Assembly: GCF_916618755.1 (NCBI RefSeq)
Contig: NZ_CAKAKB010000001.1
Coordinates: 124,001-188,000 of the forward strand
Source of the DNA: Actinotalea sp. Marseille-Q4924
GTDB lineage: Bacteria > Actinomycetota > Actinomycetes > Actinomycetales > Cellulomonadaceae
Reading direction: 5' to 3'
Length of the DNA stretch: 64,000 nt
In this document: one piece after another, positions 3,815-37,280 of the stretch
Position numbering within the stretch: the stretch's first letter is position 1
How the letters are laid out: the number at the start of each line of letters is the position of its first letter
Program-made: the position numbers and the translations under genes
Notes under the pieces: model-generated
What the model saw: the letters and a program-made list of their open reading frames with translations, nothing else
Databases searched by the model: none
What the model was told of the DNA's origin: nothing

Positions 3815-4945
3815 TCAGCCGTCGACGACGGCGATCGCCTCCGGGCGTGGGCGAAGCGCCACGGTCGTGCCCGGCCCGGGGGACCCGTGCTGGACGCCGC
3901 TGCTCGGGACGACGACGGTCACGCGCCCGACGTCGGGGACGTCCACGACCATCTCCACGACGCCGCGCCGGAAGCCCGACTGGACCACCGTGCCGGTGAG
4001 CGTGCCGGCGGGCGTGCCCGCGGACGTCCCACCCGCCTCCGCGGGGTCGTCGTCGGCGGGCACGAGCGAGCCCGGGCCGACCGCCAGCAGGGTCGCCGCG
4101 CCGTCCACCCGTCCCTCGCCGAGCAGCAGCCGGCCCGCGGGCGTCTCGGCGGCGACGAAGGCCTCGTAGCCCAGGAACTGCGCGACCCGGCGCGAGGCGG
4201 GCCGGTGCCACAGGCGCGCCGGAGGATCGACCTGCAGCAGCCTGCCGACGTCCATGACCGCGATGCGGTCCGCGACGGCGAAGGCCTCGTCGTGGTCGTG
4301 CGTGACGAAGAGCGCCGTCGTCCCGGTGGCGTGCAGCGCGGTGCGGACGTCGTCGGCCAGGCGCTCGCGCAGGGCGCGGTCCAGCGCCGAGAGGGGCTCG
4401 TCGAGGAGCACCAGCCGGGGGCGGGGCGCCAGCGACCGGGCCAGCGCGACGCGCTGCCGCTCCCCGCCGGAGAGGCTGCTCACGTCGCGCTCTCCGAAGC
4501 CGTCGAGACCGACGAGCTCGAGGAGCTCCGCGACCCGCCGCGCGCGGTCCGGGCGGGGCACCCGCTGCATCTGCAGGCCGAACGCGACGTTGGCGGCGAC
4601 GTCCCGGTGCGGGAACAGCTGACCGTCCTGGAACATCAGCCCGATGCCCCGCTGGTGCACGGGCACGCCGGCGAGATCGGTCCCGCCCCAGGTGATGGAT
4701 CCGCGTGCGACGGGCTCGAGCCCCGCCACGGCCCGCAGCAGGCTCGACTTGCCGCTGCCGGACGGGCCCAGCAGGGCGACGACCTCCCCGGGCGCGACGT
4801 CGAGGTCGAGCCCGTCGACGGCGGCCTTGGTCGTCCCGTCGTCGTCGCGGTAGAGGACGACGACGTCGCGCACCTCGAGCCCGCCCGAGCCGCCCCGAGC
4901 CGTCCGGGCGGGCGTCGCTGCGCGCGGGCCGCCGGCGTGCGCCAT
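3815..4945 (-). CDS. ABC transporter ATP-binding protein, thiamine-type importer (ThiQ-like)
   Basis: 376 aa cytoplasmic ATPase. It has Walker A GPSGSGKS at residues 60-67, a Q-loop FQD, signature LSGGERQ, Walker B LVLLDEP, and the H-loop FVTHDHDEA. A C-terminal region of ~130 residues resembles a TOBE-type regulatory extension, making it longer than classical ThiQ (about 230 aa). The substrate assignment comes from the TPP riboswitch heading the operon. The start ATG overlaps the permease stop (TGATG), so translation is coupled. Confidence 0.85.
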   Translation of the reverse strand: MAHAGGPRAATPARTARGGSGGLEVRDVVVLYRDDDGTTKAAVDGLDLDVAPGEVVALLGPSGSGKSSLLRAVAGLEPVARGSITWGGTDLAGVPVHQRGIGLMFQDGQLFPHRDVAANVAFGLQMQRVPRPDRARRVAELLELVGLDGFGERDVSSLSGGERQRVALARSLAPRPRLVLLDEPLSALDRALRERLADDVRTALHATGTTALFVTHDHDEAFAVADRIAVMDVGRLLQVDPPARLWHRPASRRVAQFLGYEAFVAAETPAGRLLLGEGRVDGAATLLAVGPGSLVPADDDPAEAGGTSAGTPAGTLTGTVVQSGFRRGVVEMVVDVPDVGRVTVVVPSSGVQHGSPGPGTTVALRPRPEAIAVVDG

Positions 4946-7978: not shown

Positions 7979-8063
7979 GTCTCCTCCTCGTCGTTCCAGG
8001 AGGGGTGGGCCCGCCCGTGTGCACGAGGGACCCGTGCACGACGGGTGTGCCCTGAGATTCCCG

Positions 8064-8160
8064 ACTCCCTACGCCGGTGTGAACCGGATCAGGTTCGAGG
8101 GTCTGCGGTGGTCCGCACTCTCAGCGTCCTGCGTCCGGCGGGCCGGACGACGCTCCCCTG
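8064..8160 (-). promoter_or_regulatory. TPP (THI-box) riboswitch
   Basis: Read on the minus strand this has the TPP aptamer landmarks in order: GGGGAGCG (about 8158-8151), CTGAGA (8124-8119), GACCCTCGAACCTGATC (about 8103-8087), CCGG...CCGGCGTAGGGA (to about 8066). The trailing GTCGGGAATCTCAGGG can pair back with the CTGAGA strand region as an expression platform. It sits about 90 bases upstream of the binding-protein start and should turn the importer operon down when TPP is plentiful. Confidence 0.93.
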
Positions 8161-8315
8161 TCGTTCAGGACGATCGTACCGGCGTCTCCGACACGACTCG
8201 CCGCGGCGGTGGCATGCCGGGCCGGAGCCGGGGTGGCGCCCGGGCGTGCAGTCCGGCGGTGGCGCCGGTGCGGACAGGGGGATCTCGGCGTTCGTGTCGG
8301 ACCCTTGGTCTATCG

Positions 8316-30225: not shown

Positions 30226-30296
30226 GCGGGTGTAGTTCAGTGGCAGAACTTCAGCTTCCCAAGCTGATAGCGCGGGTTCGATTCCCGTCACCCGCT
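30226..30296 (+). tRNA. tRNA-Gly (anticodon CCC)
   Basis: Full cloverleaf. Acceptor GCGGGTG/CACCCGC with discriminator T, D-arm TAGTTCAGTGG, anticodon stem TCAGC/GCTGA around the loop TTCCCAA (anticodon CCC at 30258-30260), and T-arm with GGTTCGATTCC. CCA is not encoded. It reads GGG glycine codons. Confidence 0.96.
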
Positions 30297-32148: not shown

Positions 32149-33144
32149 GTGCTGGAGACCACCGCCGACCGCCCGTCCGAGGACGCCCGTCCCGCCGGGG
32201 ACGTCGCGGCGGACCCCCGACCCGTCGAGGACCGGCTGACCCAGGCCGCCGACGTCGACGCGGTGACGCTCCACGTCGGGGACCTGGGCGCGATGACGGA
32301 CTACTACCGCGACGCGCTCGGTCTCGTGACGCTCGCGGAGGGCCGTGCGGCCCGCCGGGAGGGCCACGCGGAGGAGCAGGGTGGCGAGACGTCCGGCCGG
32401 GGTGAGGTCGTGCTCGGCCGCCGCGGGCGGCCCGTCCTCGTCCTGCGCCACACACCCGGGCTGCCGCAGCCGTCGCGCCGCCAGGCGGGCCTGTTCCACA
32501 CCGCGGTGCTGTTCGACGACCAGCGGGACCTCGCCGCGACGGTCCTCACCGCCGCGAGGCACCCGCGCTCGACCTACGTCGGCAGCGCCGACCACCTCGT
32601 GTCCGAGGCGTTCTACTTCACGGACCCCGAGGGCAACGGCATCGAGCTCTACCGCGACCGCCCGCGCGAGACGTGGACCCGCGGCCCCGGCAGCCGGGTC
32701 CTCATGGACTCGCTGTGGCTCGACCCGCAGGAGTACCTCCGCGCGCACGTCGACGAGGCCGCCGTCACGGGGCTCACGGACGCCGCCGCGAAGGTCGGTC
32801 ACGTCCACCTCCAGGTGGGCGACCTCGCCACCGCCCGCGACTTCTACGTCGAGACCCTCGGGTTCGACGTGGCCGCCGAGATGCCCGGCGCGCTCTTCGT
32901 CGCCGTCGGCGGCTACCACCACCACCTCGCGATGAACACGTGGAACTCGGCGGGCGCTGGACCGCGCGCGTCGACCCTCGGTCTGGGCGACGTCACCATC
33001 ACCGTCCCGACGCGGGCAGACCTCGACGCCGCCGTCACCCGGCTGCGCCGCCGCGGGGTCCAGGTGGCCGACGACGGCGCCGTCGTGCGCACCACCGACC
33101 CGTGGCGGAACAGCGTGACGCTGCAGGAGCGCGCCGCGGCCTGA
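32149..33144 (+). CDS. VOC family ring-cleavage dioxygenase-like protein (CatE-like)
   Basis: 331 aa with two vicinal-oxygen-chelate modules. The first runs from VTLHVGDLGAMTDYYRDALG to FYFTDPEGNGIELYRDRP, the second from VGHVHLQVGDLATARDFYVE. Metal ligands of the family are visible: His in LHVGD, H-T-A-V, E-L-Y, and H-L-Q-V-G-D. The layout matches CatE/catechol 2,3-dioxygenase-like enzymes that remove catechols or quinones. The GTG start has GAGGAG at 32136-32141. Confidence 0.83.
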   Translation: MLETTADRPSEDARPAGDVAADPRPVEDRLTQAADVDAVTLHVGDLGAMTDYYRDALGLVTLAEGRAARREGHAEEQGGETSGRGEVVLGRRGRPVLVLRHTPGLPQPSRRQAGLFHTAVLFDDQRDLAATVLTAARHPRSTYVGSADHLVSEAFYFTDPEGNGIELYRDRPRETWTRGPGSRVLMDSLWLDPQEYLRAHVDEAAVTGLTDAAAKVGHVHLQVGDLATARDFYVETLGFDVAAEMPGALFVAVGGYHHHLAMNTWNSAGAGPRASTLGLGDVTITVPTRADLDAAVTRLRRRGVQVADDGAVVRTTDPWRNSVTLQERAAA

Positions 33145-33207
33145 CGCGCGGGCACCGACGGCCGGCCGCGCCGACGAGCCGGGCGGGCCGCCGTCGGCAG
33201 GAGGCCG

Positions 33208-33221
33208 CGGGAGCGCTCCCG
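33208..33221. promoter_or_regulatory. CelR/CebR-type LacI operator
   Basis: CGGGAGCGCTCCCG is a perfect 14-bp palindrome whose core GGGAGCGCTCCC is the binding site of cello-oligosaccharide repressors CebR/CelR. It lies just upstream of a TAGCAT -10 box (33229-33234) of the LacI gene, so autoregulation is likely. Confidence 0.7.
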
Positions 33222-33307
33222 GCGCCGCTAGCATCGGCCCACGGCGCCTCGCGCGCCGGTGGGCCGGTGGTGCACCGGCGCGCTCCTGACGACCGGCAAG
33301 GGGAGAC

Positions 33308-34360
33308 GTGACGACGAGGTCCCGGTCCGGTCGAGCGAACCTCGAGAGCGTGGCGGCTGCCGCGGGAGTGTCCCGCGCCACCGTGTCGCGCGTCGTCAAC
33401 GGCTGGTCGTCGGTCGCCCCGGACCTGCGGGAGCGCGTCGAGAGGGCGATCGCCGAGCTCGGGTACGTCCCCAACCAGGCCGCGCGCTCGCTCGTCACCC
33501 AGCGCGCCGACGCGGTGGCGCTGGTCGCCGCCGAGCCCGACCCGCGGGTGTTCGGGGACCCCTTCTTCAGCGGGATCGTCCGTGGCGTGAGCACCGAGCT
33601 CATGAGCGCGGGCGTCCAGGTCGTGCTGCTCATGGCCCAGACGGTCGAGGACCTGGGACGCATCGAGCGCTACCTGCGGACCGCCCCGCTGGACGGCGTC
33701 CTCCTCGTCTCGGAGCACAGCTCCTACGACCCCATCCCGGCGGCGATGGTCGAGGCCGGTGTGCCTCTGGTCATCGGTGGCCGGCCGATGCAGCCGGACC
33801 TCGCCGTGCCGTCCGTCGACAACGACAACGTGGGCGGCGCGCGGGTCGCGACGGAGCACCTCCTGGCGCGCGGCTGCCGGCGCATCGGCACGGTCGCCGG
33901 CCCGGCGGACATGGCAGCGGGTGTCGATCGTCTCGTCGGCGTGCGCTCGGCCCTCGGGGGCGACCTCCCCGCGGAGCGGGTCGAGCACGGCGACTTCACG
34001 CAGGCCGGCGGCGAGGCGGCCACGCAGCGGCTCCTCGCTCGGGTGCCGGACCTGGACGGCCTGTTCGTCGCGTCGGACCTCATGGCCCTGGGTGCGCTGC
34101 GAGCGCTGCGCCTCGCCGGGCGACGAGTGCCCGACGACGTCGCCGTCGTCGGCTTCGACGACATCCCCCTCGCCGCCGCCACCGAGCCACCGCTGACGAC
34201 GGCGCGCCAGCAGACCGTCCTCCAGGGCAGGACGATGGCGCGGATGCTGCTGAGCCGGGCCCGGCCGGACCTGGAGCTGCGGGACGCGCCCGAGGTGCCG
34301 GACGTCACCGAGGACCGGGTGGTCCTCCCCGTCGAGCTCGTGGTGCGCGAGTCGGCCTGA
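33308..34360 (+). CDS. LacI family transcriptional regulator, probably CelR/CebR-like
   Basis: 350 aa. The N-terminal helix-turn-helix and hinge (LESVAAAAGVSRATVSRVVN, LGYVPNQAARSL) are followed by a periplasmic-binding-protein-like effector domain (GLFVASDLMALGALRAL, VVGFDDIPLAAATEPPLTT). The GTG start has GGGGAG upstream. A CelR-type palindrome in its own promoter suggests control by cellobiose-like sugars, but no sugar genes are adjacent in this window. Confidence 0.88.
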   Translation: MTTRSRSGRANLESVAAAAGVSRATVSRVVNGWSSVAPDLRERVERAIAELGYVPNQAARSLVTQRADAVALVAAEPDPRVFGDPFFSGIVRGVSTELMSAGVQVVLLMAQTVEDLGRIERYLRTAPLDGVLLVSEHSSYDPIPAAMVEAGVPLVIGGRPMQPDLAVPSVDNDNVGGARVATEHLLARGCRRIGTVAGPADMAAGVDRLVGVRSALGGDLPAERVEHGDFTQAGGEAATQRLLARVPDLDGLFVASDLMALGALRALRLAGRRVPDDVAVVGFDDIPLAAATEPPLTTARQQTVLQGRTMARMLLSRARPDLELRDAPEVPDVTEDRVVLPVELVVRESA

Positions 34361-34444
34361 CCGTTCTGCGCGGGCGTGCGGACGGTCGGGACCGTCCCGA
34401 CCAGGGTCTTGCGTGTCCGCCCGAAGGCCGTTTACAGTTCAACC

Positions 34445-34484
34445 AGACGCCCCGCTGCCGCCCCCCCTGAGCAGCGGGGCGTCT
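34445..34484 (+). ncRNA. Candidate small RNA 1, C7-loop hairpin
   Basis: A perfect 14-bp stem (34445-34458 with 34471-34484) closes a 12-nt loop containing seven consecutive C. A promoter TTGCGT (34409-34414), 18-bp spacer and TACAGT (34433-34438) puts the predicted start at 34445, the first base of the stem. No gene reads into it closely (the LacI gene stops at 34360). C-rich loops recall the actinobacterial 6C RNA, although that family has two such hairpins. Confidence 0.5.
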
Positions 34485-34667
34485 TCATGCCCAGGGTGGG
34501 CGCCTGCGCCCCGACGGCACCGTGCCGCCTCGCGAGAGCGACCGCCGCGCCGCGACAGCCACGCGAGCGACCACCACGCGAGCGCCCGGCGCGTGCGACC
34601 GTAGGGCTCTCCGCTCCTGGTGCCGTCCGGTCCACCCAGGCCGGACCCTTCAGCGAGGAGGACCGCC

Positions 34668-35153
34668 GTGCACGTCTCCCTGACCGTCCGCGAGGCGGTG
34701 GCGCTCGCCACCGCCACCGAGCCGCTGCCGCCCTTCGTCCGATCCCTCGACGCCGTCGGGTCGGACGTCCACGTCACCGTCGACCTCGGCCGGATGCCCG
34801 AGCTGCCGGGCGCGCTGCGGCTGGCCGCGTCGCTCCTCGGAGCGGTCGACGTGGTGGCCCGCTTCACCGGCTACGACGACGGCGTCGCCACCTTCGCCGT
34901 GACGTCACGGGCGCGCGCCCTGCCGCTCCACACGCTGCTCAACGTCCTCACCGACACGGTCACCGCGCAGCTGCGCCGGCGCGGCGTCGGCGAGCTCGTC
35001 GAGGTCCGGCGCGGCGACCCGCCGTCGGTCGCGCTGCGTCTCCAGGACGCGGTGCGCCAACGGGCCGACGGCATCGAGGTCCGCGCGTTCTCGGTGCGGG
35101 ACGGGTCGGTCAGCCTGGACGTCGGTGTCGGGGAGGTCCGGCTGCGCCCCTGA
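34668..35153 (+). CDS. Hypothetical protein, unrecognised
   Basis: 161 aa, soluble, no signal peptide. It has an alpha/beta pattern: [20 protein letters not shown], an [16 protein letters not shown] sheet, [20 protein letters not shown] helix, then [20 protein letters not shown] and [20 protein letters not shown]. No family assigned. The GTG start has GAGGAGG at 34654-34660. Confidence 0.65.
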
Positions 35154-35184
35154 GCGGTCCACCGCCCTCCGGTCCGGCGCTGTG

Positions 35185-35529
35185 ATGATGGCGCGCATGA
35201 TGCTCGCGCGCTCCGTCGCCCTCTTCGTCCTGGCCGCGCTGGCGGAGATCGGGGGCGCGTGGCTCGTGTGGCAGGGCGTCCGCGAGGAGCGCGGTCTGCT
35301 GTGGGTGGGCGCCGGCGTGCTCGCCCTCGGCACCTACGGCCTGCTGGTCACGTTCCAGCCCGAGGCGAGCTTCGGCCGCGTCCTGGCGGCGTACGGGGGC
35401 GTCTTCGTGGCGGGCTCGCTCGCCTGGGGCGTCGTCGTCGACGGGTTCCGGCCGGACCGGTGGGATCTCGCCGGCGCCGCCGTCTGCCTCCTCGGCGTCG
35501 CGGTCATCATGTACGCGCCGCGCCCGTGA
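35185..35529 (+). CDS. YnfA/UPF0060 family membrane protein
   Basis: About 110-114 aa with four membrane helices. The family signature is clear: [53 protein letters not shown] and [20 protein letters not shown]. It is related to small multidrug-resistance-type transporters; substrate unknown. The start is uncertain among ATGs at 35185, 35188, 35197 and 35200; none has a good ribosome-binding site. Confidence 0.85.
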
Positions 35530-35675
35530 CCGGCGCCCGCAGCGGCCCGACGACGCCCTGCGTGGCATGCAACCTTGCAGGTCAGGCAGGGTAAACGTTA
35601 TACGCCTGGGGGTATGGGGCCGAATTCACCCGAAAGGGCGCACGCGCGCCCGGCGCCCGGTGTTACCGTTAACAC

Positions 35676-35708
35676 GGACCCGCTGCTCCCCCCCTGCGCA
35701 GCGGGTCC
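35676..35708 (+). ncRNA. Candidate small RNA 2, C7-loop hairpin
   Basis: A perfect 11-bp stem (35676-35686 with 35698-35708) closes an 11-nt loop with seven C. The 28-nt core matches candidate RNA 1 at nearly every position. A -10 box TACCGT (35664-35669) sets the predicted start at 35676, again the first stem base. ACCTTTGTGT follows, a weak terminator-like tail. The palindrome GTGTTACC-GTTAACAC (35660-35675, one mismatch) overlaps the -10, suggesting a dedicated repressor. Confidence 0.5.
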
Positions 35709-35811
35709 ACCTTTGTGTCCGGGCACCACCCGAGCCGACACCCCCGGGCCCCGGCGGCGCCGATCCCCCGGGGGTCGCGACCGCCACGGACCCGTCCCGC
35801 CGCGGTGGCCC

Positions 35812-36939
35812 TCAGCCTCGCGGCTTGAGCCGCTGGTGCGGCATCGGTGGCGCGGGCAGCGGCGCGTGCGGGTGGCCCTGGACGACGCCGAAGCGCGCGC
35901 GCGGTCCGGCAGCGCGGGTCGACACGCCGTCGGGCACGCCCTCCGCCGACGCCAGGTCGGCCCGGCGGGTCTCACCCGCGGCCGGGTCCCCGCCCGCGTC
36001 CACCGCGGCGTCGTCGGCGCCGATCTGGGCCTGCCACTGGGCGCGCGCCCGCGCGACCTCGTCGTGGTCGCGCCCGATGAAGTTCCACCACATGACGACC
36101 TGCTCCCCGAGCGGCAGGCCGCCGAGGACGAGCACCCGCAGGTCGCCGTCGTCGGAGGCATGCACGGTCACGGAACGTGCGCCGGGTGCGACGTAGAGCA
36201 GCTCCCCCGACGACGCCCCCACGGCGGGCGCGCCGTGCGTGTCCGCGCGGTCCGTGCGGACCGCAGCGGCGCCCGTGTCGACGAGGACGCCGTGCTCGAA
36301 GGCCGGGTCGACGTCGACGGTCTGCGTCGCGCCGGCGCGCAGCACGAGCTCGGCACCGAGGAGCGGGGAGAAGGTCCGGACCGGCGAGGAGGCGCCCCCG
36401 AGCGAGCCGAGGAAGACGCGCAGCTCCCCATCGGGGAGCGCGACGGGGTCGGGCACGTGGTGCTCGAACGCCGGGTCCGTGTCGCGTGACTCCTCCGGCA
36501 GGACCGTCCACAGCTGCACGCCGTGCAGGACGGTCGTCGCGGCGGTCGAGTCCTCGGAGTGGCTGATGCCGTGGCCGGCGGTCATGAGGTTGAGCTGCCC
36601 CGGCCGGACGAACGCGTGGGTGCCGAGGCTGTCCCGGTGCTCCACCTCGCCGGAGAACAGCCAGCTCACCGTCTGCAGCCCGGTGTGCGGGTGCGGCGGG
36701 ACGCGCATGCCGCCGGTGACGGACACGTCGTCCGGGCCGTAGTGGTCGATGAAGCACCACGCCCCGATGAACGAGCGCCGGCGCTGGGGCAGCGTCCGGC
36801 ACACGGTCATCGCACGGGGGCCCCCGAGCGGCACGTCGCGCGCCTCGAGCACCTCGATGCTCCCGGGCTCGACCGCCGTGCCGGCCGCCGGCCGGTCGTC
36901 GCAGAGCACCTCGACGGGTCGGGCCTCGAGGTTCGTCAT
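35812..36939 (-). CDS. Pirin family protein
   Basis: 375 aa cupin protein. The N-terminal cupin keeps the metal-site residues of pirins (PPHPHTGLQTVSWLFSGEVE, then LNLMTAGHGISHSED), followed by LHGVQLWTVLP and a C-terminal cupin (VLVLGGLPLGEQVVMWWNFI). Pirins act as quercetinase-like oxygenases or transcription cofactors. The C-terminal ~60 residues are an Ala/Gly/Asp-rich extension. It is divergent from the small GNAT gene with 41 bases between the starts. Confidence 0.9.
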   Translation of the reverse strand: MTNLEARPVEVLCDDRPAAGTAVEPGSIEVLEARDVPLGGPRAMTVCRTLPQRRRSFIGAWCFIDHYGPDDVSVTGGMRVPPHPHTGLQTVSWLFSGEVEHRDSLGTHAFVRPGQLNLMTAGHGISHSEDSTAATTVLHGVQLWTVLPEESRDTDPAFEHHVPDPVALPDGELRVFLGSLGGASSPVRTFSPLLGAELVLRAGATQTVDVDPAFEHGVLVDTGAAAVRTDRADTHGAPAVGASSGELLYVAPGARSVTVHASDDGDLRVLVLGGLPLGEQVVMWWNFIGRDHDEVARARAQWQAQIGADDAAVDAGGDPAAGETRRADLASAEGVPDGVSTRAAGPRARFGVVQGHPHAPLPAPPMPHQRLKPRG

Positions 36940-36980
36940 ACGAGGGGCAACACCGGGACCCGCGCGCCTATTCTCGGGCG

Positions 36981-37280
36981 ATGAGCGACGTGACCGTGAC
37001 CCACGACGAGACCGCCTCCCGCTACGAGCTGCGTGACGGGGAGGAGGTCGTCGGCTTCGCCTCCTACCGCTGGGAGGGCGGCAGGGTGGTCATGGACCAC
37101 ACGGTCGTCGACCGTGACCAGCGCGACCAGGGGCACGGGTCGACGCTGGCCCGCGGCGCCCTCGAGGACGTCCGCCGGCGCGGGCTGCGCATCGTGCCGG
37201 AGTGCCCGTTCATCCGGTCCTTCGTCGAGGACAACCCCGAGTTCGCCGACCTCGTGGACGAGACGCCCGACGACGTCTGA
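36981..37280 (+). CDS. Small GNAT acetyltransferase (Acetyltransf_CG, YidJ-like)
   Basis: 99 aa. The family pattern DETASRYELRDGEEVVGFAS, HTVVDRDQRDQGHGSTLARG (acetyl-CoA loop) and IVPECPFIRSFVEDNPEFAD (conserved C-P-F) is complete. The ATG at 36981 follows TATTCT (36969-36974) by six bases, a leaderless start. Substrate unknown. Confidence 0.88.
   Translation: MSDVTVTHDETASRYELRDGEEVVGFASYRWEGGRVVMDHTVVDRDQRDQGHGSTLARGALEDVRRRGLRIVPECPFIRSFVEDNPEFADLVDETPDDV

Follow-up and report, generated by a model that had tools for sequence, protein, structure and literature searches.

Two C-loop hairpins at predicted promoter starts in an Actinotalea genome belong to a conserved, apparently undescribed family of candidate small RNAs

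RepG, a small RNA of Helicobacter pylori that is larger than the C-loop hairpins described here, pairs by its C/U-rich terminator loop. Its likeness to these hairpins lies in its target, a G-repeat in an mRNA leader, but it comes from a different phylum. B11, the mycobacterial 6C RNA, is reported to act as a repressor whose C-rich loops base-pair, and sX13 of Xanthomonas (Rfam RF02232) represses G-rich mRNAs with its C-loops; for both RNAs, repression of G-tracts by C-loops is established. Ms1 is another RNA, and the open library searched listed no title on such an RNA in Cellulomonas or its relatives. C-loop sRNAs are already known as a kind; the hairpin family described here is without an Rfam match and is apparently undescribed.

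The window (the whole stretch of 64,000 nucleotides of Actinotalea sp. Marseille-Q4924 that was analysed) holds two such hairpins, W1 and W2, which lie 1231 bases apart from start to start and have the following features:

34409..34414, + strand: -35-like box of W1, TTGCGT, 18 nt before the -10 box (TTGCGC at equal spacing in the syntenic copy L003 of genome G013)
34433..34438, + strand: -10 box of W1, TACAGT, six bases ahead of the first stem base
34445..34484, + strand: predicted W1 hairpin RNA, 14-bp stem and 12-nt loop with seven C, start predicted at 34445
34445-34458, + strand: 5' stem arm of W1, AGACGCCCCGCTGC
34459-34470, + strand: loop of W1, CGCCCCCCCTGA
34485..34495, + strand: tail of W1, TCATGCCCAGG
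35664..35669, + strand: -10 box of W2, TACCGT, six bases ahead of the first stem base (identical TACCGT in the syntenic copies of G013 and G011)
35676..35708, + strand: predicted W2 hairpin RNA, 11-bp stem and 11-nt loop with seven C, start predicted at 35676
35676-35686, + strand: 5' stem arm of W2, GGACCCGCTGC
35687-35697, + strand: loop of W2, TCCCCCCCTGC
35709..35724, + strand: tail of W2, ACCTTTGTGTCCGGGC

The initial annotation had reported two near-identical C7-loop hairpins at 34445-34484 and 35676-35708, which is borne out by sequence, by folding and by recurrence in relatives; the stems that it quoted, CCCGCTGC, do form these hairpins but were drawn too short, the true stems reaching 14 and 11 bp. 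Folding energies are -30.5 kcal/mol for W1 and -24.4 kcal/mol for W2 (z of -7.6 and -6.4), and 0 of 200 shuffles were equally stable. When the shape of W2 was used as a pattern with at most two mismatches, W2 itself was the sole match genome-wide, W1 being unmatchable with its loop one base longer. W1 sits 3' of a LacI gene and is followed by a same-strand ORF; W2 sits between convergent YnfA and pirin genes. An 8-bp inverted repeat (GGTCGGGA/TCCCGACC, 34384-34402) directly after the LacI gene is perhaps the LacI terminator, and an AT-rich patch at 35575-35606 (TTGCAGG...GGTAAACGTTATACGCC), in the interval between YnfA and W2, may serve as operator or as another promoter. At the Rfam gathering thresholds, the window gave a TPP riboswitch at 8049-8169 (- strand), a tRNA gene at 30226-30296 (+ strand) and no other match. 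In a permissive search of 34300-35800, the best sub-threshold Rfam match was sX13 on W1, at a chance-level 17.7 bits (E of 1.4, gathering score 50). Both have a CCCCCUG-type apical loop in a GC stem, but sX13 has three stem-loops and an unstructured 5' region and belongs to Xanthomonas, and no homology is implied.

Each hairpin was also said to start exactly at its predicted promoter start, and this holds for both, a TANNNT box ending six bases before the stem of W1 and of W2. No -35 box was recognisable for W2, and a strict consensus scan of 33000-37000 returned zero sigma-70 sites and zero terminator-like sites. The spacing recurs outside the window: among 17 matches chosen by score alone with R1, a covariance model of the hairpin alone (12 sequences, no promoter in the model), TANNNT stands 5-7 nt before the stem in 15 and [TC]ANNNT in all 17, against per-position backgrounds in the window of 0.0003 and 0.006, a test that is not fully blind since the R1 training set, which contributed 11 of the 17, came from BLAST with queries including the -10 box. 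TANNNT was likewise found 5-7 nt ahead of the stem in 21/24 A/B/D copies picked by eye.

The W1 and W2 stems are not followed by the strong U-tract of an intrinsic terminator, their tails being mixed, and tail variants such as TTCATGYCCGG are found after a number of family hairpins. Actinobacterial terminators, however, often lack U-tracts, and the strong GC-rich stems, one behind LacI and the other in the gap where YnfA and pirin converge, could be ordinary (bidirectional) intrinsic terminators of these neighbours, next to which the -10 boxes would be incidental; terminator-like C-loop hairpins do occur among the weaker hits (e.g. L093, L105, L119). A -10 box at 5-7 nt is present in family members and missing from those hits, LacI has its own inverted repeat ahead of the W1 -35 box, and one would not expect ordinary terminators to retain an almost identical loop and promoter from one genus to the next. 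We consider the terminator explanation quite unlikely.

DNA searches with W1 and W2 in 59 genomes, the own genome included, gave matches at E<=0.01 in 14 and 12 genomes, several of them not covering the hairpin, and W1-like and W2-like hairpins of other genus members are among these matches. Both hairpins are present side by side in G013, at a distance of 1162 bases, and in G011, at about 720 bases; genes for pirin, glyoxalase and a hypothetical protein are common to the window and these two genomes, and G013 additionally shares LacI and YnfA. Judged from the sequences, the W1/W2 pair is not a product of chance, since it recurs in two related genomes and similar copies are found across the genus. 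A common neighbour gene for the dispersed A/B copies was considered and rejected, as the ten flanking proteins scanned, from eight A/B loci, have no Pfam family in common. In the own genome, R1 scored W2 at 56.2 and W1 at 53.1 bits (both are in its alignment) and gave eight further matches of at most 35.5 bits; in the 19 genomes of the genus it gave 17 matches of at least 47 bits, all W1/W2-like. A pooled model of 30 sequences, R2, placed W1/W2-like copies, as assigned by reading, in at least 11 of these 19 genomes. Here and below, genome-search counts are lower bounds, the number of candidates scored per genome having been capped at 150, 34 or 20.

The stems covary. In the pooled alignment A2, 99.0% of the cells are paired and two-sided changes are seen in 9 of 12 pairs, compared with at most 54.5% pairing when the partner was slid, and in A4 (27 type C sequences, described below, from four families) 97.7% are paired and 8 of 15 pairs changed on both sides, compared with at most 60.3% for the slid structure; such counts are favoured by the training of R1 and R2 on structured hits in hand-chosen sets. 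Rfam at E<=1 gave two tRNAs and weak matches in 11 related loci, none on the hairpins. The searches of relatives found stem, loop and -10 box conserved outside the strain, and they support W1 and W2 as paralogous members of a conserved hairpin family with a -10 box at nearly fixed distance, as minimal sRNAs would have. Their paralogy stands, but to call them a pair was too narrow, because they belong to a family with a third and far more widespread member in the same genome, type C:

G000:C4:403322-403360 (L040), outside the window: type C copy of the own genome, 29.7 bits with R1 (among its eight further matches) and 50.8 bits with R2, upstream of a DUF4011-like gene

With R2, the family was found in at least 17 of the 19 genus genomes, and type C in at least 15 by reading. 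At E<=1e-6, at least 31 of 347 genomes of the order were positive (families f1, f8, f9 and f13), as were at least 2 of 345 in a class sample, both of the window's own family. A pattern scan of named genomes matched 105 stretches, and the 80 of these that were listed come from Cellulomonas, Cellulosimicrobium, Oerskovia, Actinotalea, Sanguibacter, Sediminihabitans, Flavimobilis, Paraoerskovia and Timonella, the rest of the 80 being metagenome bins or uncultured. Type C is the most widespread and presumably the ancestral member, and the W1/W2-type copies, which within the family occur in the window's genus and in two further genera, look like younger paralogs.

Type C orthologs read TTGAC-N17/18-CAnnnT followed by GACAGTGCGCATCGC-CTGCCCCCTGC-GCGGTGCGCACTGTC, with variants, and their stem is a covarying one of 15 bp. 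Model hits carry the loops CTGCCCCCTGC (18), CCGCCCCCTGC (6), TGGCCCCCCCTGC (3) and TCGCCCCCTGC (2). In a profile of 69 non-redundant loci (12 of 81 copies were dropped, three too near an end and nine near-duplicates), conservation peaks at -40..-35, at -16..-11, over the stem-loop and over the pyrimidine tail, with a weaker signal between the -10 box and the stem, and it fades by about +47. Loop GCCCCCUGCGC and the upper stem are strongly conserved, partly by construction as far as the profile goes, since the scan pattern fixed much of both. With the -10 box ending at -11, the expected transcription start is close to -3, where the 15-bp stem begins, so that the start geometry of type C should be the same as that of W1 and W2. 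A second stem of at least 10 bp follows immediately downstream in 25/62 type C loci; at this frequency a second hairpin was rejected as a constant part, and the family RNA may nonetheless extend past the first hairpin in such loci. In L115, the type C hairpin is followed by a second C-loop hairpin with loop ACCCCCTG, a 6C-like two-hairpin layout. Contig L202 is mirrored around a palindrome at 4101-4400, with two type C copies face to face, probably a misassembly; it was kept in the profile and left out of the second-stem, leaderless-motif, start-region and reading-frame counts.

In 73/81 copies, type C is followed by a DUF4011 gene on the same strand, and the best hit was never on the opposite one; of the remaining eight, six have contigs that run out in less than 800 bases and two belong to L202. 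The linkage also holds in one locus of f9 and in 30/32 loci of a second set that includes families f8 and f13 (a few loci were fetched twice), where L157 misses because its contig ends 200-odd bases on and L151 is a real exception within 1.5 kb. Such a same-strand position, together with the same-strand ORF after W1, is what one would expect if the hairpin acted in cis, as leader or attenuator of the gene that follows it. A leaderless motif, TTA[GC]NGT...[AG]TG, is however present downstream of type C in 62/75 loci (0.05 expected per locus), starting 135-369 nt on, and absent in 13/75. In 58/62, the start codon of the motif shares the frame of the DUF4011 match and reads into it without a stop; of the other four, three are out of frame and one has no DUF4011 match. 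Since DUF4011 would usually have its own leaderless promoter, the type C hairpin is unlikely to be the leader of this gene; moreover, the gene after W2 is convergent, and the A/B loci compared share the window's neighbours only in G013 and G011, with no common Pfam family in the flanking proteins scanned. A leader or attenuator is thus very unlikely, and type C looks like a transcription unit separate from the DUF4011 gene, for which the comparative evidence is strong.

Pfam detected the DUF4011 domain in L114 and L121 and did not find it in the L098 and L040 fragments, whose ORFs were assigned to DUF4011 through tblastn matches to L121 or L098. The downstream fragments of L098, L121 and L040 show distant similarity, far below the cut-off, to anti-phage Hhe/ProA, and those of L098 and L121 also to PADLOC PDC-S37. 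An identification of DUF4011 with an already named defence gene was rejected, the similarity of the fragments compared being partial and far sub-cut-off.

The hairpins share with 6C/B11 their actinobacterial origin, C-rich loops and strong GC stems. They differ in having one conserved C-loop hairpin (L115 with its second) where 6C has two, in lacking a match to the covariance model, in gene neighbourhood and in not co-occurring with 6C in 347 genomes at the thresholds used. The suggested check with RF01066 gave no match in the window at the gathering score (47 bits) and none in the own genome at E<=1. Some other members of the family do have sub-threshold matches at E<=1, the best of which (35.3 bits, G006:C152, L066) is a terminator-like hairpin without a -10 box. 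In L075, 6C sits ahead of a HAD hydrolase gene; at this place the own genome has no C-run hairpin of at least 8 bp, a CCCCGG-loop hairpin being found on the gene's other side, about 310 nt past the HAD match. This slot is taken from L075 only, 6C being near a penicillin-binding protein gene in L072. Membership in 6C was rejected by score and architecture and, as far as the L075 slot shows, by place.

Across the order, 6C gave at least 48 matches at E<=3e-4 and at least 35 over the cut-off among 347 genomes, in families f5, f6, f10, f14, f15, f17, f18 and f19. None of the 347 genomes was positive for both 6C and the R2 family, and no family was common to both, overlap being compared by genome handle with the two 347-genome samples taken as identical. 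This complementary distribution is as expected for substitution, and the hairpin family may stand in for 6C, a pattern that is only suggestive with few clades involved. The same principle, the similar stem-C7-stem look and the absence of overlap would also suit a reduced and relocated descendant of 6C, but such descent is highly improbable given one hairpin instead of two, an own genome without a 6C match at E<=1 and no C-run hairpin in the HAD slot.

Computed duplexes of the loops with AGGGGG or GGGGGG reach -11.6 to -13.9 kcal/mol, those with AAAGGAGG -5.1 to -5.2 and those with GGAGG -3.6 to -3.7 kcal/mol. The initial annotation had the RNAs aimed at GGAGG-type sites, which is not supported by this weak pairing; the exact loop complement GCAGGGG is present in 0/360 start regions. 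The duplex energies favour G-tracts, so that G-tract sites near starts would be the targets, as others have demonstrated for sX13 and B11, and the family RNAs probably pair with G-rich stretches in other RNAs. Upstream of 360 roughly predicted starts (the first ATG/GTG of long high-GC3 ORFs), GGGGG occurs in 7 regions vs 4 of 360 controls, AGGGG in 11 vs 3, GGGGA in 17 vs 3 and GGAGG in 24 vs 9, with no G-tract enrichment strong enough to name targets.

We put at about 60% the reading that W1 and W2 are paralogous genes for very short non-coding RNAs whose hairpin runs from +1 and whose C-loop pairs with G-tracts, which builds on the observed conservation, covariation, promoter geometry and synteny. 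Its predicted parts are transcription, the 3' end, trans-acting pairing and targets. RNA polymerase would start on the first stem base, giving an RNA made up almost wholly of a single GC-rich hairpin that lacks a 5' overhang, carries a C5-C7 loop and ends in a short run of pyrimidines. Its length would be about 40-50 nt or somewhat longer, and about 80-100 nt in copies with a second hairpin. For the RNA, the stem probably gives stability and, weakly, termination; a blunt GC stem from +1 should resist 5' decay and leave the C-run exposed, which would pair with AGGGGG or GGGGGG near mRNA starts and block translation, as 6C/B11, sX13 and RepG do.

Strong conservation of loop GCCCCCUGCGC and the upper stem, and linkage to a protein distantly related to anti-phage Hhe and ProA, could instead point to an RNA that acts by binding a protein, as a decoy or structural part and perhaps with the DUF4011 helicase-nuclease, rather than by antisense pairing. 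W1 and W2, however, are unlinked to DUF4011 and retain mainly the C-run, and a C-run on a variable stem is explained more simply by G-tract pairing, which makes protein binding rather improbable. A bolder version of the G-tract reading, unlikely as it stands, is that the single-hairpin RNA replaced 6C as global G-tract regulator in the Cellulomonas clade, the ancestral copy being functionally tied to the Hhe/ProA-like DUF4011 helicase-nuclease (e.g. as RNA cofactor or off-switch) and W1 and W2 being freed paralogs.

If these RNAs are made as proposed, they would form a conserved and very small bacterial sRNA family that begins on its own stem and has no Rfam match. In the genomes sampled, it and 6C occur in different bacterial families, a complementarity that makes it testable whether one C-loop RNA has functionally replaced another. 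The sRNA family would also be a conserved companion of a DUF4011 helicase-like gene with kinship to anti-phage proteins. More C-loop hairpin copies, most with -10-like boxes, were seen in L110 (G033) and in L111 and L112 (G125), and in G033 two identical hairpins, oriented in opposite directions, are separated by 3.9 kb.
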